DNA of 64,000 bases from Streptomyces katrae (GTDB taxonomy: Bacteria; Actinomycetota; Actinomycetes; Streptomycetales; Streptomycetaceae), in the NCBI RefSeq assembly GCF_002028425.1, contig NZ_CP020042.1, positions 4,687,560 to 4,751,559 of the forward strand. Direction: 5' to 3'. Of the stretch, positions 43,017 to 51,125 are shown in pieces; the stretch's first letter is position 1, and each line of letters begins with the position of its first letter. A model generated the notes under the pieces. That model did not search any database. It saw only the letters and a program-made list of their open reading frames with translations, and was not told where the DNA came from. The translations under genes were made by a program, and so were the position numbers.

Positions 43017-43030
43017 TCACGACGGCGGGG
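42915..43030. repeat. ~18-bp tandem repeat array
   Basis: Six or so diverged units of the form CGGGGYCCGTCACGGCCGA (e.g. CGGGGCACGTCACGGCGA twice). The last unit overlaps the final codons of the minus-strand gene ending at 43017. Confidence 0.7.
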
Positions 43031-44585
43031 TCAACTCCGCGAGCATGTCGGCCCGTACCCGCAGCGTCGCCACCAGCCTCTGGAACGCCTCGGCCCAGTA
43101 CGCGGAGGCCCCGGAGCCCCCCTCCGGGACATCCGCCGCCCCGGCCGTGAGGCCCTCCAGCCGGCCCGCCTCCGCCGGATCGAGGCAGCGCTCCGCCAGC
43201 CCCATCACCCCGCTGAAGCTCCACGGATAACCCCCCGCGGCCCGCGCCGCGTCCAGCGCGTCCACCACCGCCCGCCCCAGCGCCCCCGCCCACGGCACGC
43301 GGCAGACCCCGAGCAGCTGGAACGCCTCCGACAGCCCGTGGGCCCGCACGAACTCCGCGACCCACTGCGCCCGTTCCCCCTCCGGCAGGGTCTCCAGCAG
43401 CTTGGCCCGCTCCGCGAGCGACGCCGTGCCCGGCCCCGCCGCGGGCGGCGCGGACGCCGCGCCCAGCAGCGCCTTCGACCACTGCGCGTCCCCCTGCCGC
43501 ACCGCCGCCCGGCACCAGGCGGCGTGTATCTCCTCCGCCCAGCCGTCGGCCACCGGCAGCGCCACTATCTCCGCCGGCTCCAGCCCCCCGAACCGCTCCC
43601 GCCAGCAGGACAGCGGAGCCGCGTCCACCACCTGGCCGAGCCACCACGCCCGCTCCCCGCGCCCGGCGGGCGGCCGCTTGACCACCCCGTCGCGCAGCAT
43701 CCCCGCGTCGCACTCCGCCGGCGGCCGCACCGCGTCCGGGCCCACGCAGGCCAGCGCCCGCTCCGCCATCCGCCCGGCCAGCGCCGACTGCGGAAGCGCG
43801 GACAGCAGTTCCGCCGCCGTCGCCCGTACGTTGCGGCTGCGGTCGCCCAGCGCCGCCTCCAGGAAGGGCTCGTCGGCCATCGACAGCCCGGCCCGCAGCG
43901 AGTCGAGGAACATCAGCCGGTCCTCGGCCCGCTCGGTGGCCCACGTGGAGGCCAGCAGCCGGGTCGCCGCCGCCGCGTCACGGGCCCGTACGGCGCCCAG
44001 CAGCGCGACCCGCTCCGCGAACAGGCCCTCCTCCCACAGCCGGGTCACCGCCTCCGCGTCGGCGGGGTCGGGCAGTTCGCCGGCGCCGCCCGCCGCGCCG
44101 CGCAGCGCGAACCGCCATTCCGGATTCAGCCGGGCCAGCCAGAGCCCCCGCGCGCCGGCCAGCGCCAGCGCCTGCGCGCGCAGGTCGGTGCGGGCCCGGG
44201 CCGCGTCCAGCAGCGCCGGGACCAGCGCCGACGGAGCCCGGTAGCCGTGCCGCCCGGCGGCTGCCAGCCACTGCGGGAGCAGCTCCGTCAGATCCGGGGC
44301 GGCCCCACGCCGCCCGGCGCCGCCGCCGCTCGTACGGCCGGCGAGCAGGTGGGCGAGCCGCCGCCGGGCGGCTTCCGGCGGCGCCGGGCGCGGATCCCGG
44401 GGCGCGGGGTCCGGCAGCCGGGCCGCCGGCGCGGGCCGCAGCCCGGCGCGGCGGCGCAGCGTCTGCACGGCCGCCGCGTCGAGCAGCGCCCGCGGGGTGC
44501 CGCCCCGCCGCTCGGTCCCCAGCAGCGCGGCGGTGACCAGTGCCTCCCAGTCCCCGTCCGCGTATCCCTCTCCGGTCTCGCCCAT
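43017..44585 (-). CDS. DUF5691-like helical-repeat protein of the MoxR/VWA cassette
   Basis: A 522-residue soluble, Ala/Arg/Leu-rich protein. Mid-chain segments (EPFLEAALGDRSRNVRATAAELLSALPQ) have the helix-turn-helix rhythm and conserved Asp/Arg of HEAT repeats. The N-terminus (DWEALVTAALLGTERRGGTP) matches what I recall as DUF5691, typically encoded beside SWIM, MoxR, DUF5682 and VWA genes. It has no signal peptide or catalytic motif and is probably a scaffold or adaptor. GAGGGAGGGG precedes the ATG. It is downstream of the SWIM gene on the same strand, separated by 284 bp that contain a large stem-loop and a seven-codon ORF. Confidence 0.8.
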   Translation of the reverse strand: MGETGEGYADGDWEALVTAALLGTERRGGTPRALLDAAAVQTLRRRAGLRPAPAARLPDPAPRDPRPAPPEAARRRLAHLLAGRTSGGGAGRRGAAPDLTELLPQWLAAAGRHGYRAPSALVPALLDAARARTDLRAQALALAGARGLWLARLNPEWRFALRGAAGGAGELPDPADAEAVTRLWEEGLFAERVALLGAVRARDAAAATRLLASTWATERAEDRLMFLDSLRAGLSMADEPFLEAALGDRSRNVRATAAELLSALPQSALAGRMAERALACVGPDAVRPPAECDAGMLRDGVVKRPPAGRGERAWWLGQVVDAAPLSCWRERFGGLEPAEIVALPVADGWAEEIHAAWCRAAVRQGDAQWSKALLGAASAPPAAGPGTASLAERAKLLETLPEGERAQWVAEFVRAHGLSEAFQLLGVCRVPWAGALGRAVVDALDAARAAGGYPWSFSGVMGLAERCLDPAEAGRLEGLTAGAADVPEGGSGASAYWAEAFQRLVATLRVRADMLAELTPPS

Positions 44586-44642
44586 CCGGCCCCTCCCTCG
44601 TCAGTCCCCGTCAGTGGTCCGTCGTCCAGCCGGTCCGTCGTC

Positions 44643-44707
44643 TTCGTGCGGCCCGGCTCCGGTCCCGCCCCCTCCGCGGGACCGGAGCCTCGGATGTGCC
44701 GCACGAA
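44643..44707. other. Long two-part stem-loop between the SWIM and DUF5691-like genes
   Basis: Outer arms TTCGTGCGGC (44643-44652) and GCCGCACGAA (44698-44707) enclose inner arms GGCTCCGGTCCCGC (44655-44668) and GCGGGACCGGAGCC (44676-44689), giving 24 paired bases with a 7-nt loop. On the minus strand it lies just after a tiny ORF (44736-44713) and 58 nt before the DUF5691-like start, so it may be a terminator for the SWIM transcript or a leader control element. Confidence 0.6.
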
Positions 44708-44869
44708 CCCGTTCAGCTGGCGTGGTTGTCGTTCATGAAAGCCCCCCGGCTCCTCGTCCGCGCGTCGGCGCCCCCGCGCCTCCGCGTCCTCCATGTCGGT
44801 CTGTCAGACGGCATGGATCCCCCCAGGCCCCCTGCGTTCCAGGTGTGTTCGCGTCCTTCCTCGGATGCT

Positions 44870-46210
44870 TCAGACCAGCGGCACCGGCTCGGGCGAGCCG
44901 GGCTGCCAGGCGGTCAGCGGGGTGAAGCCGCGGTGGCCGCACTCGCCGAACACCGTGACGGGGCCGCCGCCCGAGAGGGCGGCCAGCTGCCACAGCGCGG
45001 GCCGCGGACGGCCCCCGCCGCAGGCCACCGGCAGTGCGGACGCCCCCTCCGCGTCCGCGAGCTGCCAGCCCCCCTCGGCCGCCTCGCCCGGTATCGGGAT
45101 CACCGGGCCGAGGACCACCGGCCAGGACTCCAGCCACGGGTCCTCCCGCAGCGCGGCCCCGTAGGCCTCCAGGGCCTCACCGGTGCCCACCCCTGCCGGA
45201 GCCCCGGAGCGGTCCGCCACCGCGGCCGCGGTACGGTCCCCCAGATCCGCCCGGAGCCCCGCCGTCCCGGGCCGGAAGCGGACTTCCGCCTCCAGCACCA
45301 GTCCGACGGGCAGGGCCAGCCCCGGCGCCCGCCCGGGCGGTCCGAAGTCCAGCACCAGCGCCGGCCGTCCGCCCTCCAGCCCGCGCAGCCATGTCCGGCG
45401 GGTGGTGAGACGGCCGTCCGGGGACACCGAGTCGTACTGGGCGAGCACGAGCCAGCGGTCCCGGACGGTCTCCCCCTCGGCCGAGGACGGCACTCCCACC
45501 CGGTTCCGGACGGTCGCGGCCAGCGGCTCCGGCAGTCCGGAGACCCCCAGCCAGGCCCGGTCCAGCAGGTGCAGCAGCGCGAACTCCTCAAGCATCCGGC
45601 CGGGCCAGCCGGAGCCGCAACCGGGTATTGTCCCCAACTCCCTTACCCGTGCGGCCAGTCCGGGTGCCTGGGCGTCGACCATCCGGGCGGCGGTCTCCTC
45701 CCACGGCGCGTACCCCGCCTGCCCCTGCCCGGCGATCCCGCCGCGCAGCAGGTCCGCCAGCCGCTGCTCCAGCTCCGCGACGCCCGCCCCGACCCGCTCC
45801 GCGCGCCGCTCGGCCCGCTTGCGCGCCGCCTCGGCGTCCACCGGGCCGGCCGTCGGGCGGGCGGCCTTCGCCGCACGCTCCGCCAGCCAGGACGCCGCCC
45901 AGTCCGGCGCCTCGGCCGGGTCGCCCAGGCCCTGCGCCGACCAGAGCAGCAGCAGTCCCAGCGCGTGCTTGCACGGGAACTTCCGGCTCGGGCAGGAGCA
46001 CTTGTACGCGGGGCCCGCCAGATCGACGGCCGTCCGGTACGGCGTACTGCCGCTGCCCTTGCACACCCCCCACACCGCACCGGAAGCGGAACCTCCGGTC
46101 TGTGACCACGGACCCGCCCCGCCCAGCCTGCCCCCCGCCTTGCGCGACGCGTCGTCAGGAGCCAGAGCCAGTACCTGTTCCGCCGTCCAGCGGACCCCCT
46201 GCTCAGTCAT
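44870..46210 (-). CDS. SWIM zinc finger protein of the MoxR/VWA cassette
   Basis: A 446-residue protein. The SWIM motif CSCPSRKFPCKH (C71, C73, C80, H82) follows a beta-rich lead-in (AVWGVCKGSGSTPYRTAVDLAGPAYK), the canonical CxCx(n)CxH zinc site of SWIM domains, which bind DNA or protein. A coiled region (EAARKRAERRAERVGAGVAELEQRLADLL) and a long C-terminal domain with repeated Trp/Gly-rich beta segments follow. The ATG at 46210 (MTEQGVRWTAEQVLALAPD) is preferred over the Arg-rich extension open to 46381. It is divergent from the MoxR gene, sharing a 134-bp promoter region with a 10-bp inverted repeat. Confidence 0.88.
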   Translation of the reverse strand: MTEQGVRWTAEQVLALAPDDASRKAGGRLGGAGPWSQTGGSASGAVWGVCKGSGSTPYRTAVDLAGPAYKCSCPSRKFPCKHALGLLLLWSAQGLGDPAEAPDWAASWLAERAAKAARPTAGPVDAEAARKRAERRAERVGAGVAELEQRLADLLRGGIAGQGQAGYAPWEETAARMVDAQAPGLAARVRELGTIPGCGSGWPGRMLEEFALLHLLDRAWLGVSGLPEPLAATVRNRVGVPSSAEGETVRDRWLVLAQYDSVSPDGRLTTRRTWLRGLEGGRPALVLDFGPPGRAPGLALPVGLVLEAEVRFRPGTAGLRADLGDRTAAAVADRSGAPAGVGTGEALEAYGAALREDPWLESWPVVLGPVIPIPGEAAEGGWQLADAEGASALPVACGGGRPRPALWQLAALSGGGPVTVFGECGHRGFTPLTAWQPGSPEPVPLV

Positions 46211-46230
46211 GTGAACCACCGTAGAGACCC

Positions 46231-46287
46231 CCACTGACAATCCCTCTGACCTGCAACGACGCCCCGACCAGGGGGCGTTGTCAGTGG
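46231..46287. promoter_or_regulatory. Widely spaced 10-bp inverted repeat in the SWIM-moxR divergent promoter
   Basis: CCACTGACAA (46231-46240) and its exact complement TTGTCAGTGG (46278-46287), with an inner imperfect dyad (AACGACGCCCC / GGGGCGTT). Each arm contains TTGTCA oriented toward one gene, so they could be paired -35 elements or a shared operator. Confidence 0.5.
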
Positions 46288-46344
46288 CGTGGTGCACCGT
46301 GGGTACAGCAGTCGGGAGCGGCTGCCGAGCACTGGAGGGGGACC

Positions 46345-47451
46345 ATGAGCACGCACGGGAACGACACCGGTACCGAGGCACTGCGACCGCACGCGGAAGA
46401 CGCCTTCGCGCACGAACTGAAAGCTCTGGAAGCCGCCGACGACCGGCCCCGCCCGGCCCGCTGGAAGCTCTCCCCCTGGGCCGTGGCCACCTACCTCCAG
46501 GGCGGCACGCTCGCGGACGGCACGGTCATCACCCCCAAGTACGTCGGCCCGCGCCGGATCGTCGAGGTCGCCGTCACCACCCTCGCCACCGACCGCGCCC
46601 TCCTCCTGCTGGGCGTCCCCGGCACCGCCAAGACCTGGGTCTCGGAACACCTGGCCGCCGCCGTCAGCGGGGACTCCACCCTGCTGGTCCAGGGCACGGC
46701 CGGCACCCCCGAGGAAGCCATCCGCTACGGCTGGAACTACGCCCGACTCCTGGCCGACGGACCCAGCCGCGACGCCCTCGTCCCCAGCCCCGTCATGCGG
46801 GCCATGGCCCAGGGCATGACCGCCCGCGTCGAGGAGCTCACCCGCATCCCCGCCGACGTCCAGGACACCCTCATCACCGTCCTGTCCGAGAAGACCCTCC
46901 CGATACCGGAGCTCGGCCAGGAGGTGCAGGCCGTGCGCGGCTTCAACCTCATCGCCACCGCCAACGACCGCGACCGCGGGGTCAACGAGCTCTCCAGCGC
47001 CCTGCGCCGCCGCTTCAACACCGTCGTCCTGCCGCTGCCCGCCACCGCCGACGCCGAGGTCGACATCGTCGCCCGCCGCGTCGGCCAGATGGGCCGCGCC
47101 CTGGACCTGCCCGCCGTGCCCGAGGGCCTGGAGGAGATCCGCCGGGTCGTCACCGTCTTCCGCGAGCTGCGCGACGGGATCACCGGCGACGGCCGCACGA
47201 AGGTGAAGTCGCCCAGCGGCACCCTCTCCACCGCCGAGGCCATCTCCGTGGTCACCGGCGGCCTCGCCCTCGCGGCGCACTTCGGGGACGGCGTCCTGCG
47301 CCCCTCCGACGTGGCCGCGGGCATCCTCGGCGCCGTCGTCCGCGACCCGGCCGCCGACCGGGTCGTCTGGCAGGAGTACCTCGAGGCGGTCGTCCGCGAG
47401 CGCGAGGGCTGGAAGGACTTCTACCGTGCCTGCCGGGAGGTGACGGCATGA
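46345..47451 (+). CDS. MoxR-type AAA+ ATPase
   Basis: A 368-residue AAA+ ATPase. Walker A is GVPGTAKT (90-97), the Walker B region reads ARVEELTRIP (E163-E164), sensor 1 is in LIATANDRD (N207) and the arginine finger in ALRRRFNTV (221-223); the MoxR-typical VLSEKTLPIPELG follows Walker B. MoxR ATPases act as chaperone-like remodellers with VWA-domain partners (RavA-ViaA, NorQ-NorD, CoxD-CoxE). Here the partner VWA gene is two genes downstream, and the next gene overlaps by ATGA, so the products are co-translated. GGAGGGGGACC precedes the ATG. Confidence 0.93.
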   Translation: MSTHGNDTGTEALRPHAEDAFAHELKALEAADDRPRPARWKLSPWAVATYLQGGTLADGTVITPKYVGPRRIVEVAVTTLATDRALLLLGVPGTAKTWVSEHLAAAVSGDSTLLVQGTAGTPEEAIRYGWNYARLLADGPSRDALVPSPVMRAMAQGMTARVEELTRIPADVQDTLITVLSEKTLPIPELGQEVQAVRGFNLIATANDRDRGVNELSSALRRRFNTVVLPLPATADAEVDIVARRVGQMGRALDLPAVPEGLEEIRRVVTVFRELRDGITGDGRTKVKSPSGTLSTAEAISVVTGGLALAAHFGDGVLRPSDVAAGILGAVVRDPAADRVVWQEYLEAVVREREGWKDFYRACREVTA

Positions 47452-49751
47452 GGCCGGGCGGCACCGGACCGCTGCTGCTCGGGGTCCGCCACCACGGACC
47501 GGGCTCCGCCCGGGCGGTGCGGGCCGCGCTGGACCGGGCGCGGCCGCGGGCCGTGCTGATCGAGGGGCCGCCCGAGGGGGACGCGCTGCTCGCGCTGGCC
47601 GCCGAGCCGGGGATGCGCCCGCCGGTCGCCCTGCTCGCGCACGCGGCGGACGATCCGGGCCGGGCCGCCTTCTGGCCGCTGGCCGCCTTCTCCCCGGAGT
47701 GGGCCGCCATCCGCTGGGCCCAGGCCGGGGAGGTCCCGGTGCGTTTCATCGACCTCCCCGCCGCCCACACGCTGGCCGTGCCGGAGGAGGAGGGCGCCGA
47801 CGGGCAGGACGCCGGCGGGCGGGGCGGCGCCGGCGCCCTGCCGCTGGACCCGCTCGCCGTGCTCGCGGAGACCGCCGGGTACGAGGACCCGGAGCAGTGG
47901 TGGGAGGACGTGGTCGAACACCGGGGCAGCGGGGCGGTACGGGACCCGCTGGCCGCCTTCGGGGCCCTGGAGGAGGCCATGGGCGCCCTGCGCGAGACCT
48001 ACGGGCACGGCGGCCGTCCCCGCGACCTGGTGCGCGAGGCCCACATGCGGCAGCGGATGCGGGCCGCCCGCCGGGAGTTCGGCGAGGACTACGCCGTGGT
48101 GTGCGGCGCCTGGCACGTTCCGGCGCTCCGCGCCAGGACGACGGTCGCGGCCGACCGGGCCCTGCTCGCCGGGCTGCCCCGGACCAAGGTGGAGACCACC
48201 TGGGTGCCCTGGACCCACCGCAGGCTCGCCCGGGCCGGCGGATACGGCGCGGGCGTCACCTCGCCCGGCTGGTACGCGCACCTCTTCGCCTCCCGGGACC
48301 GGCCCGTCGAGCGGTGGCTGACCAAGGTGGCCGGGCTGCTGCGGGAGGAGGACCGGCAGGTCTCCCCGTCCCATGTCATCGAGGCGGTCCGGCTGGCCGA
48401 GACCCTGGCGGCCTTCCGGGGCCGGCCGGTGCCCGGGCTCGGCGAGACGCTGGAGGCGGTGCGGGCGGTGATGTGCGACGGCTCGGACGTACCGCTCGCG
48501 CTGGTCGAGGACCGCCTCGTCGTCGGGGACGTGCTCGGGGAGGTCCCGGACACGGCGCCCGCGGTACCGCTCCAGCGGGACCTCACCCGCCGGCAGCGCT
48601 CGCTGCGGCTGAAGGCGGAGGCCCGCGAGCGGGAGCTGGAGCTGGACCTGCGCAAAGACGGCGACGCGGCCAAGTCCCTGCTGCTGCACCGGCTGCGGAT
48701 GCTCGGGGTGGACTGGGGCGTGCCCGCCCCCTCCCGGGCCGGGACGGGCACCTTCCGGGAGACCTGGCGGCTGCGCTGGGAGCCCGAGCTGTCGGTGCGG
48801 GTCGCCGAGGCGGGCGTCTGGGGCACCACCGTCCTCGGCGCGGCCACCGCCAAGGCCGCGGCCGAGGCGGCGGCCGCGGCGGAGCTGGGGGAGGTCACGG
48901 CCCTGGCGGAACGGTGCCTGCTGGCCGGGCTGTCGCAGGCGCTGCCCGCCGTGCTGCGGGCACTGGCCGACCTGGCGGCGCTGGACACCGATGTGGCGCG
49001 GCTCGCCAAGGCGCTGCCCGCGCTGGCCCGTTCCCTGCGGTACGGGGACGTACGGGGCACGGACTCGGCGGCGCTCGGGACGGTCGCGGCCGGGCTGGCA
49101 GAGCGGATCTGCGTGGCCCTCCCCCCGGCCTGCGCGGCCGGGCTCGACGCCGACGGGGCGGCGGAGCTGCGGGGCCACCTGGACGGGGTGCACGGGGCGG
49201 TCGCCCTGCTGTCCGACGCGGACGGGGGGCTGCGGGAGCGCTGGTCGGCGGTGCTGCGGCAGCTGGCCGGGCGGGACAGCGTGCCCGGGCTGATACGCGG
49301 CCGGGCCGTGCGGCTGCTGCTGGACGAAGGGCGGCTCCCGGCCGCGGAGACGGCCCGGCTGATGGGGCTGGCACTGTCCCCGGCGGCCTCCCCGGCCGAC
49401 GCGGCGGGCTGGATCGAGGGGTTCGCGGGCGGCTCCGGCGGCGGGACGCTGCTGGTCCACGACGAGCGGCTGCTGGGCCTGGTCGACGCGTGGCTGGTGT
49501 CGGTCCCGGAGGGCGCCTTCATCGACGTACTGCCGCTGCTGCGGCGGACGTTCGGGGCGTACGAGCCGGGCGTGAAGCGCACCCTGGGCGAATTGGCCCG
49601 CCGCGGTCCGGGCCCGCGGGGCATACCCACCGGCGCCGCCCCGGCCCCCGAGGGCTTCGCCCCCGACCTGGACCCGGCCCGCGCGTCTGCGGCGGCGGAG
49701 GTGGCCCGGCTCCTCTTGGGGGCGCCCGACCTTGCCCTGGCCGGGCGGTAG
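47448..49751 (+). CDS. DUF5682-like protein with EreA/TIKI-type GxxH motifs
   Basis: A 767-residue protein. The first 250 residues open with LLLGVRHHGPGSARAVRAAL (GVRH at 12-15), then VLIEGPPEGDALL (Glu at 39), REAHMRQRM and VVCGAWHVPAL (GAWH at 220-223). Two GxxH motifs flanking Glu/Arg positions are the signature of the erythromycin-esterase/TIKI/TraB superfamily, so a hydrolase or metallopeptidase is possible. The remaining 500 residues are Leu/Ala/Arg-rich helices without a known motif. The start overlaps the MoxR stop (ATGA). The DUF5682 label is from recall of the cassette composition. Confidence 0.8.
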   Translation: MRPGGTGPLLLGVRHHGPGSARAVRAALDRARPRAVLIEGPPEGDALLALAAEPGMRPPVALLAHAADDPGRAAFWPLAAFSPEWAAIRWAQAGEVPVRFIDLPAAHTLAVPEEEGADGQDAGGRGGAGALPLDPLAVLAETAGYEDPEQWWEDVVEHRGSGAVRDPLAAFGALEEAMGALRETYGHGGRPRDLVREAHMRQRMRAARREFGEDYAVVCGAWHVPALRARTTVAADRALLAGLPRTKVETTWVPWTHRRLARAGGYGAGVTSPGWYAHLFASRDRPVERWLTKVAGLLREEDRQVSPSHVIEAVRLAETLAAFRGRPVPGLGETLEAVRAVMCDGSDVPLALVEDRLVVGDVLGEVPDTAPAVPLQRDLTRRQRSLRLKAEARERELELDLRKDGDAAKSLLLHRLRMLGVDWGVPAPSRAGTGTFRETWRLRWEPELSVRVAEAGVWGTTVLGAATAKAAAEAAAAAELGEVTALAERCLLAGLSQALPAVLRALADLAALDTDVARLAKALPALARSLRYGDVRGTDSAALGTVAAGLAERICVALPPACAAGLDADGAAELRGHLDGVHGAVALLSDADGGLRERWSAVLRQLAGRDSVPGLIRGRAVRLLLDEGRLPAAETARLMGLALSPAASPADAAGWIEGFAGGSGGGTLLVHDERLLGLVDAWLVSVPEGAFIDVLPLLRRTFGAYEPGVKRTLGELARRGPGPRGIPTGAAPAPEGFAPDLDPARASAAAEVARLLLGAPDLALAGR

Positions 49752-49799
49752 GGGACGGGCCCTGCCCCGGCCGGGCGGCCCGGGGCCGGTTCCCCTACC

Positions 49800-49935
49800 C
49801 CCCCAGACCCTCCCCCCGCGCCTCAGACGCCGGCGGGGCTGGATTCCGGCGCGGCGAATGAGCGCAACGGGGTCCGGGGCGGAGCCCCGGAGAACGGGTG
49901 AAGGGCGGGGCGGGGAGACGGCCCCGCCCAGCGGT
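49800..49935. repeat. Dispersed intergenic element, copy 2
   Basis: In the 216-bp gap before the VWA gene: GCGCCTCAGACGCCGGCGGG, then the core GGGGTCCGGGGCGGAGCCCC (from 49869) and AGAACGGGTGAAGGGCGGGG. The same modules occur at 42818 and, inverted, at 57296-57324. Confidence 0.75.
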
Positions 49936-49967
49936 GCACACGGCAACGAGTGAAAGGGGATCGGCAG

Positions 49968-51125
49968 ATGACGGAGACAGGCACGGAAACCGCCGGAGGC
50001 GAGCGGCTGCGGCGGTGGCGGATGGTGCTCGGCGGCGGCGAGGCCGACGGCACCGGGCGGGCGCTGAGCGGGCGGGACGCGGCGATGGACGGGGCGCTGG
50101 CGGCGCTCTACGGCGGGGGCGGCGACGGCAAGGGGCCGGGGGAGCGGTCGGCCGGGCTCGGCGCCTCCGCCCCGAGGGTGGCGCGGTGGCTCGGGGACAT
50201 CCGTACCTACTTCCCCGTCCCGGTGGTGCAGGTCATGCAGCGGGACGCGATCGAGCGGCTGGGCCTGTCCGCCCTGCTGCTGGAGCCGGAGATGCTGGAG
50301 GCCGTCGAGCCCGACGTGCACCTGGTCGGGACCCTGCTGTCGCTGAACAAGGCCATGCCCGACACCACGAAGGAGACGGCGCGGGCCGTGGTCCGCAGGG
50401 TGGTCGAGCAGCTGGAGAAGCGCCTTGCCGCCCGGACCCGCGCCACCCTCTCGGGGGCGCTCGACCGCTCGGCCCGGACCAGCCGCCCCCGGCACCGGGA
50501 CATCGACTGGGACCGGACGATCCGCGCGAACCTGAAGAACTACCTCCCCGAGTACCGCACGGTCGTGCCCGAGCGGCTGGTCGGCTACGGGCGGGCCGCG
50601 CAGGCCGTGAAGAAGGAGGTGGTGCTCTGCATCGACCAGTCGGGCTCGATGGCGGCTTCGGTCGTCTACGCCTCCGTCTTCGGGGCCGTCCTGGCCTCCA
50701 TGCGGTCGATCGCCACCCGCCTGGTCGTGTTCGACACGGCGGTGGCCGACCTGACCGACCAGCTCGACGATCCGGTGGACGTCCTCTTCGGCACCCAGCT
50801 CGGCGGCGGCACGGACATCAACCGTGCGCTGGCCTACTGCCAGTCCAAGATCACCCGTCCTGCCGACACGGTCGTGGTCCTGATCAGTGATCTCTACGAG
50901 GGCGGCATACGCGACGAGATGCTGAAGCGGGTCGCCGCGATGAAGGCGGCCGGCGTGGAGTTCGTGGCCCTGCTCGCGCTGTCCGACGAGGGCGCCCCCG
51001 CCTACGACCGGGAGCACGCCGCGGCCCTCGCCGCGCTCGGCGCCCCCGCCTTCGCCTGCACGCCCGACCTGTTCCCGGAGGTGATGGCGGCCGCGCTGGA
51101 GAAGCGTCCCCTGCCGGTGCCCTGA
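49968..51125 (+). CDS. VWA (von Willebrand A) domain protein, MoxR partner
   Basis: A 385-residue cytoplasmic protein. The N-terminal 210 residues are helical (GDIRTYFPVPVVQVMQRDAIERLG ... VVRRVVEQLEKRLAAR). The VWA domain starts at about 216 with an intact metal-ion-dependent adhesion site: DQSGS (D223, S225, S227), Thr282 in GGGTDINRAL and Asp308 in LISDLYEGG. Such proteins are obligate partners of MoxR ATPases. No signal peptide or membrane span. AAAGGGGA precedes the ATG at 49968. It closes the plus-strand arm of the cassette, after a 216-bp spacer that carries a dispersed repeat. Confidence 0.9.
   Translation: MTETGTETAGGERLRRWRMVLGGGEADGTGRALSGRDAAMDGALAALYGGGGDGKGPGERSAGLGASAPRVARWLGDIRTYFPVPVVQVMQRDAIERLGLSALLLEPEMLEAVEPDVHLVGTLLSLNKAMPDTTKETARAVVRRVVEQLEKRLAARTRATLSGALDRSARTSRPRHRDIDWDRTIRANLKNYLPEYRTVVPERLVGYGRAAQAVKKEVVLCIDQSGSMAASVVYASVFGAVLASMRSIATRLVVFDTAVADLTDQLDDPVDVLFGTQLGGGTDINRALAYCQSKITRPADTVVVLISDLYEGGIRDEMLKRVAAMKAAGVEFVALLALSDEGAPAYDREHAAALAALGAPAFACTPDLFPEVMAAALEKRPLPVP

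Follow-up and report, generated by a model that had tools for sequence, protein, structure and literature searches.

Several described systems pair a MoxR-type AAA+ protein with a partner that carries a von Willebrand factor A (VWA) domain with a metal ion-dependent adhesion site (MIDAS); NorQ–NorD, CoxD–CoxE and RavA–ViaA are of this kind. YehL is one of seven named MoxR subfamilies (PMC3893208), and in Escherichia coli K-12 the genes yehL, yehM, yehP and yehQ bring together MoxR, DUF5682, VWA and SWIM proteins in one cluster. Here, we analyzed a related five-gene cassette at positions 43,017–51,125 of a 64,000-nucleotide stretch of the Streptomyces katrae genome (NZ_CP020042.1, 4,687,560–4,751,559; hereafter the window). 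The gap between its two divergent arms holds two outward-facing copies of an actinobacterial DNA-damage promoter motif. On balance, we favor the reading that the cassette encodes a damage-inducible AAA+ machine of the YehL branch, which belongs to the LexA-independent (RecA-NDp/PafBC-type) response of Streptomyces and processes protein–DNA complexes.

The families of the window proteins were assigned by Pfam scan, which bore out the five families and the two-arm layout given in a preliminary description of the sequence. The minus arm starts with a SWIM zinc-finger protein (44,870–46,210, 446 amino acids (aa); PF04434, E = 4.8e-6), whose zinc motif CSCPSRKFPCKH follows the pattern CxC-x6-CxH. 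Its second gene encodes a DUF5691 protein (43,017–44,585, 522 aa), which PF18944 matches across residues 16–518 (E = 1.3e-161); the label HEAT-like used in that description finds a Pfam match only below the threshold (E = 0.068). The plus arm encodes a MoxR ATPase (46,345–47,451; MoxR/AAA_5, E = 1e-36; Walker A GVPGTAKT, Walker B with EE where DE is usual), a DUF5682 protein (47,448–49,751; PF18934, E = 2e-282) and a CoxE-type VWA protein (49,950–51,125, with a possible alternative start at ATG 49,968; PF05762 VWA_CoxE, E = 6.5e-61). As already described, the coordinates join the MoxR end to the DUF5682 start in an ATGA overlap, and the MIDAS of the VWA protein is intact, its DxSGS, T and D elements all being present.

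Pairwise comparison with the E. coli proteins gave 39% identity between YehL and the window MoxR (E about 4e-73 to 9e-73; EE in both Walker B motifs), 36% between YehP and the VWA protein (E about 3e-74 to 6e-74) and 26% between YehM and the DUF5682 protein (E = 8e-36). YehQ and the window SWIM protein had no pairwise match, and the match between their profiles was confined to the surroundings of the zinc motif (E = 0.002, probability 14%). In a comparison limited to the YehL and RavA subfamilies, the window MoxR was closer to YehL (E = 4e-73) than to RavA (E = 0.066), which by sequence places it in the YehL subfamily. The YehL-type neighborhood of DUF5682, CoxE-type VWA and SWIM genes is likewise present, with DUF5691 replacing the DUF4132 protein encoded upstream by yehI. 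Homology between DUF5691 and DUF4132 was considered and rejected: hhalign found no relation (E = 0.48), and they resemble each other only in position, each adjoining the same set of four genes. An hhalign match between DUF5691 and SWIM at 98% was judged an artefact, the annotated DUF5691 open reading frame (ORF) of the Hymenobacter seed starting inside the SWIM gene.

A damage-type promoter motif in the divergent gap

The actinobacterial RecA-NDp, or P1, damage promoter has the consensus tTGTCRgtg-8nt-TannnT (PMC5656591). The divergent gap contains TTGTCAGTG-N8-TACGGT at 46,218–46,240 on the minus strand, facing SWIM–DUF5691, and TTGTCAGTG-N8-CACCGT at 46,278–46,300 on the plus strand, facing MoxR. 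Each copy is near the first gene of its arm in the right orientation; the SWIM-side copy matches the consensus exactly, whereas the MoxR-side copy deviates at the −10 element, having CA instead of TA. The longest SWIM ORF (44,870–46,381, minus strand) begins at GTG 46,381 and overlaps MoxR on the opposite strand. The start is most likely ATG 46,210, because the profile match begins at 46,195 and the −10 element ends 7 nt before this ATG. The divergent gap is therefore taken as 46,211–46,344, and the SWIM transcript is possibly leaderless. Sigma-70 and terminator scans of 46,000–46,500 gave no matches.

For comparison, 80 loci were fetched through a DUF5682 alignment. All are from Streptomyces, other phyla being represented by records from a plasmid collection. 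A footprint over 76 Streptomyces loci, including the window, revealed two nearly invariant outward-facing TTGTCAGTG copies in the divergent gap. The SWIM-side copy matched the strict consensus in 71 of these loci. On the MoxR side, the first half was kept in 72 of 76, all having CA or the like at −10 and none TA, and the strength of this copy as a promoter is uncertain. The 80 loci (1.58 Mb) held 71 strict matches, of which 70 were in the divergent gap and one came from a locus truncated ahead of SWIM; the reversed pattern was found nowhere in these sequences. Regulation of the cassette by a damage-type promoter is thus well supported at the sequence level.

The motif keeps company with DNA-repair genes. 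The genome of the window (8.06 Mb) has 17 strict sites, as against none for the reversed control, and a coding-like ORF begins 6–85 nt downstream of each of them (starts were sought downstream only, so ORFs starting upstream would escape). Named from their Pfam domains, the genes behind these sites encode RecA, RuvC, DNA polymerase I, RadA, DnaX, uracil-DNA glycosylase and an SNF2 helicase, besides an HD dGTPase-like protein, a macrodomain protein, a WGR-propeller protein, the DUF4132 head gene of a second MoxR operon (type B, below) and the SWIM protein of the cassette. Four other Streptomyces genomes had 19–25 sites, with 0–1 in the controls. The macrodomain gene SCO6735 of S. coelicolor has been reported to be UV-inducible and to have a RecA-NDp promoter (PMC5087735). 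Streptomyces has PafBC homologues, but an initial search suggested a lack of conservation of the Mycobacterium smegmatis motif in S. venezuelae (PMC9380542); the sites found here conflict with that suggestion as reported.

In the window's genome, a further five genes, small or poorly known (L122, L129, L130, L132 and L134), immediately follow exact RecA-NDp sites, which makes them candidates for new damage-response genes. The gene for the WGR-domain and beta-propeller protein (L126, L168; C1:2053113 in the window's genome) bears the motif, with no MoxR, VWA or DUF5682 profile match in the surrounding 20 kb. Outward-pointing pairs of exact copies about 2.0–2.1 kb apart were seen in three Streptomyces genomes, G013 (C1:2325635/2327742), G019 (C1:2084818/2086881) and G053 (C7:1252208/1254215).

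Conservation of the cassette and its sister operons

The layout DUF5691(−) SWIM(−) MoxR(+) DUF5682(+) VWA(+) was found in all 65 Streptomyces loci with enough flank on both sides, and one of the 15 shorter loci also shows all five genes. In the window, the cassette is accompanied by genes for a UvrD/PcrA helicase, an M23 peptidase, an alpha/beta hydrolase and a B12-binding protein, with two succinyl-CoA ligase subunits encoded downstream. The cassette holds a fixed chromosomal place in Streptomyces: of the 72 loci in which both genes were found, 67 have sucC no more than 4 kb after VWA. Among 100 actinobacterial genomes that are at least 90% complete, scored against the family cut-offs, DUF5691 and DUF5682 exceeded them in the same six genomes and adjoined in each; a seventh had a DUF5691 match below the cut-off. 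Such an overlap has a chance of 8e-10 if the draws are independent, which they are not (two of the six genomes are Streptomyces, and two share a family).

A tblastn search with the MoxR protein against 72,556 plasmid records yielded 41 records, of which 16 regions were opened. Seven of these contained SWIM, DUF5691, MoxR, DUF5682 and VWA in this order on one strand. The operon could be read from the annotation in Deinococcus taeanensis and Rhizobium etli; in Hymenobacter and Methylosinus the annotation served up to DUF5682 and our own profile for VWA, DUF5682 or VWA being in pieces; in Methylobacterium, Nonomuraea and Nocardia it was found by our own profiles. A Fusobacterium record has SWIM, MoxR, DUF5682 and VWA, with a 638-codon open frame in the place of DUF5691, which our profile did not detect in that record. 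The remaining eight regions were other MoxR–VWA–DUF5682 types. DUF5691 matched five plasmid records, all among those holding a cassette-type MoxR, and the MoxR proteins of Deinococcus, Hymenobacter and Methylobacterium are 70% identical to that of the window. Decay or sequencing errors may explain why, on the Hymenobacter radiodurans plasmid (L097), DUF5682 falls into three ORFs and the ORFs of SWIM and DUF5691 overlap. A phage collection gave no DUF5691 match and a single DUF5682-like frame (MT835988.1, 10,872–12,761, labelled Bacteriophage sp.; 27% identity), which may be a bacterial fragment.

The gene set therefore recurs well beyond close relatives, in Deinococcus, Hymenobacter, alphaproteobacteria and other actinobacteria, as the proposal of a single cassette in the preliminary description had required. 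The conserved operon across phyla, together with a fusion of DUF5682 to VWA in a paralogue, supports the five genes as a single functional unit. From the same-strand order across phyla and the divergent layout in Streptomyces, the usual form is a single five-gene operon, two genes of which Streptomyces turned round.

Streptomyces genomes contain four types of MoxR–VWA–DUF5682 operons. Type A is the window cassette. Type B, also present in the window's genome, has the order DUF4132, large protein, MoxR, DUF5682/VWA and SWIM-like protein; there, DUF5682 and VWA are fused in a 1666-aa protein, and the large and SWIM-like proteins matched no Pfam family at E 0.01. The second protein of this operon (L006, 4004–9142) has 1712 aa, and its relative on an S. 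atratus plasmid is annotated as a DNA-binding protein. Type C is a close copy of E. coli yehI-L-M-P-Q, and type D consists of an unknown gene, VWA, MoxR and DUF5682, without a recognized SWIM gene. In a MoxR tree of 41 rows, a branch of support 100 set apart each of the Streptomyces types A, B and D, and all five groups required four changes in total, the minimum possible. One genome (G019) carries all four types, its type A being judged from the score. With the type likewise read from the score, 56 of 61 same-genus genomes had a DUF5682 match of at least 799 bits, the type A range, while types B, C and D look patchy. As to the E. coli form, plasmid NZ_CP103756.1 (L111), typed as conjugative, carries a yehI-to-btsS stretch near IS26 and a CTX-M-15 gene; a resistance transposon has been reported from the DUF4132/yeh region of the sequence type 131 chromosome.

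The damage motif also precedes the sister operons. In a search of operon heads that accepted TA or CA at −10 in the right orientation, it was found in 13 of 21 type B loci (strict form, 60–115 nt ahead of the profile match of the first gene; the other eight had one or two mismatches), in all three type C loci (50–85 nt ahead of the first start codon) and in 11 of 13 type D loci, one with CA (583–692 nt ahead of the first recognized gene, before a further small ORF). A matrix trained on 15 other motif sites of the window's genome placed its best match within 1 kb on the right strand, 65–120 nt ahead of the first gene, in all eight remaining type B loci. The scores were 13.4–30.2, the low ones being weak alone, as the five best matches in the 64-kb window reached 21.1, 17.1, 14.4, 12.5 and 9.8. 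A similar matrix site was present in the type D locus L013, and none was found in L110 (Embleya). The type A operons outside Streptomyces had no match to the motif with TA or CA. Their best matrix matches lay 44–107 nt upstream on the right strand in four of six loci, with low scores (1.1, 4.2, 12.9 and −0.3), and no nearby match was found in the other two; as sequence signals, these matches are suggestive, no more. LexA, alphaproteobacterial GTTC, radiation/desiccation response motif (RDRM) and actinobacterial LexA boxes were sought in the 400 nt ahead of 24 starts of genes or operons, including Gram-negative and Deinococcus ones, and none was seen; the one motif to match there was RecA-NDp, at three type C loci. 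In the yeh region of E. coli, 13 LexA-like 20-mers with at most three mismatches were counted (7.5 expected), none with fewer than two.

Protein features and possible functions

Motifs were counted over five locus sets comprising 133 loci. Walker A was present in all of them and the first MIDAS element, DxSGSM, in 131. Narrow patterns for the second and third MIDAS elements matched 106 and 101 loci, and the arginine-finger region was found in 110; all three patterns were missed in each of the 21 type B loci. The Walker B pattern [DE]E occurred in 132 loci, with EE in all 127 among the matches listed. The nearest solved relatives of the MoxR protein are midasin and NorQ, the latter being the nearest bacterial one; for the VWA protein, a sequence search at E 0.01 found no related solved structure. 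With Walker A and MIDAS in place, the earlier view of MoxR and VWA as a remodelling pair is supported at the family level.

AlphaFold models of DUF5682 (mean predicted local distance difference test scores of 84.5 and 83.5) showed an N-terminal alpha/beta domain (residues ~1–262) followed by helical repeats (~270–757). VIA-align of the predicted models assigned an EreA/ChaN-like fold to the N-terminal domain, which agrees with the proposal of a hydrolase-like subunit at the level of a predicted model. Foldseek gave no match below E 0.001 for either model, full-length structural matches over residues 412–756 were generic helical repeats, and the DUF5682 profile found only two weak matches to an unrelated human protein among solved structures (E = 0.8). 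The conserved residues R14, H15, H16, E39 and H223 (RHH, E, GxxH) are only suggestive of a hydrolytic site.

These features can be combined into a mechanism for the cassette. DNA damage or topological stress would fire the divergent promoters. By analogy with NorQD, for which an AAA+ ring twisting its VWA partner in the pore has been proposed (PMC13036017), the MoxR ring may twist the VWA protein inserted in its pore and so remodel a target held at the MIDAS site. DUF5682 presumably works with VWA, because the two are fused in the paralogue, and would contribute a hydrolase-like site of the EreA/ChaN type as well as an arm of helical repeats. SWIM and DUF5691 could recruit the assembled complex to DNA or to a DNA-bound protein; the SWIM protein had been proposed as a nucleic-acid or protein sensor, and of this the zinc domain stands by family. 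The likely job would be to dismantle or process protein–DNA complexes that hinder repair, replication or the balance of topoisomerases.

A different role is suggested by published work on SCO4804, an 815-aa protein of S. coelicolor. Transposon disruption of its gene lowers topA promoter activity and the TopA level, and sco4804 and adjacent genes rise eightfold on TopA depletion (PMC8120823). SCO4804 is probably the DUF5682 protein encoded between MoxR and VWA, as judged not from the S. coelicolor sequence itself but from four fitting features: its length, the 103- and 171-bp gaps, the order of genes towards SCO4808 and the homologues listed. We take SCO4808 to be sucC, and gaps of this kind are also present at the Streptomyces relatives of the cassette. 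The complex might accordingly control topoisomerase gene expression, its promoter answering supercoiling instead of damage. We consider this improbable: SCO4804 is reported to bind DNA non-specifically, to show no TopA interaction and to leave reporter-plasmid supercoiling unchanged on induction, the effect was called indirect, and the transposon is polar on sco4805 (PMC8120823). Moreover, the motif is common to recA, ruvC, polA and others. The eightfold rise on TopA depletion and the non-specific DNA binding also fit the damage-linked machine favored here. An unlikely, if somewhat better placed, possibility is a cofactor- or metal-insertion chaperone, in which a CoxDE/NorQD-like pair would mature one enzyme needed after damage and DUF5682 would bind rather than hydrolyze, as ChaN binds haem. 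No candidate metalloenzyme was seen travelling with the cassette in the annotated plasmid regions opened, and damage processing accounts better than a single client enzyme for the presence of one damage motif at four paralogous systems.

MoxR–VWA pairs with variable third parts have been proposed as conflict systems (PMC7159879), and the preliminary description drew a parallel to those of the VMAP kind. Such a ternary anti-phage system, with DUF5682 as the toxic effector, would agree with the patchiness of types B, C and D and with the copies on plasmid records, and the window shares with these systems a MoxR–VWA core with further components. Here, however, those components are DUF5682, SWIM and DUF5691, and SWIM, TraB, EreA and YehL are absent from the main text of PMC7159879. 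None of the five proteins had a Pfam match to a VMAP, iSTAND or propeller domain, the bpMoxR score of 23.5 bits stays below the 27-bit cut-off, and PADLOC gave only weak matches (E = 0.014 and worse), all to MoxR. The wide presence of type A-range DUF5682 in the genus, the sucC-linked place and the DNA-repair genes that share the motif also stand against a conflict role, so the parallel is not supported and we rate this as the least probable of the alternatives. A machine that is induced by damage and processes protein–DNA complexes is more compatible with these data.

Regulation of the sister systems also speaks for this reading. The yehF–yehH genes beside E. coli yehI-L-M-P-Q are presumably those known as molR. 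molR has been listed among the LexA-regulated or SOS genes of E. coli (PMC11039860, PMC3978071), and a DUF4132 gene of Deinococcus radiodurans is reported to rise on DdrO depletion (PMC8533742). We tentatively suggest, with considerable doubt, that MoxR–VWA–DUF5682 systems form an unrecognized AAA+ branch of the damage response. SWIM, WGR–DUF4132 or DUF5691 would find the lesion, and the motor would deliver proteins that are crosslinked or in the way to DUF5682, which would act as a peptidase of the EreA/ChaN type. The regulators would differ (PafBC type in Streptomyces, LexA at E. coli molR, DdrO at the Deinococcus DUF4132 gene), with up to four versions in one Streptomyces genome. If this is true, the DNA-damage response gains a widespread AAA+ motor together with its hydrolase-like partner, both in laboratory E. 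coli and in antibiotic producers.

Comparison with known systems

The preliminary description held that this gene set has no described function. The kind is indeed uncharacterized, but it has a sister system in E. coli yehLMPQ, a named subfamily in YehL and, through SCO4804, a topA phenotype. The literature searched, which left most subscription journals and preprints outside, did not name DUF5682 or DUF5691; its joint mentions of YehL, YehM, YehP and YehQ were judged to be in passing, and none of the matches listed combined a SWIM domain with MoxR or VWA.

Compared with NorQ–NorD, CoxD–CoxE and RavA–ViaA, the window cassette has the additional DUF5682, SWIM and DUF5691 proteins, and no client enzyme was seen in the operon. 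RavA–ViaA identity was rejected: beyond the distant RavA match, ViaA matched with E = 6e-5 over 172 residues, the ViaA model scored 21.5 bits against a cut-off of 500 bits, and RavA has DE in Walker B in place of EE. DUF5682 differs from EreA/ChaN-like proteins in the long helical-repeat region fused on, and the 11 members scanned had no Pfam match to those families.

The cassette resembles the published members of the RecA-NDp/PafBC regulon in that its motif fits the consensus and occurs with recA and other repair genes. The published accounts examined do not name MoxR–VWA–DUF5682 operons as members; MoxR1 and MoxR2 of M. smegmatis, of whichever MoxR subfamily, are listed there as lowered without pafBC. 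The cassette is a five-gene variant, found across phyla, of a known but uncharacterized sort of MoxR system, and its link to DNA damage is new and testable. For YehL-type MoxR systems, the promoter evidence opens a first and cheap way to test their function.

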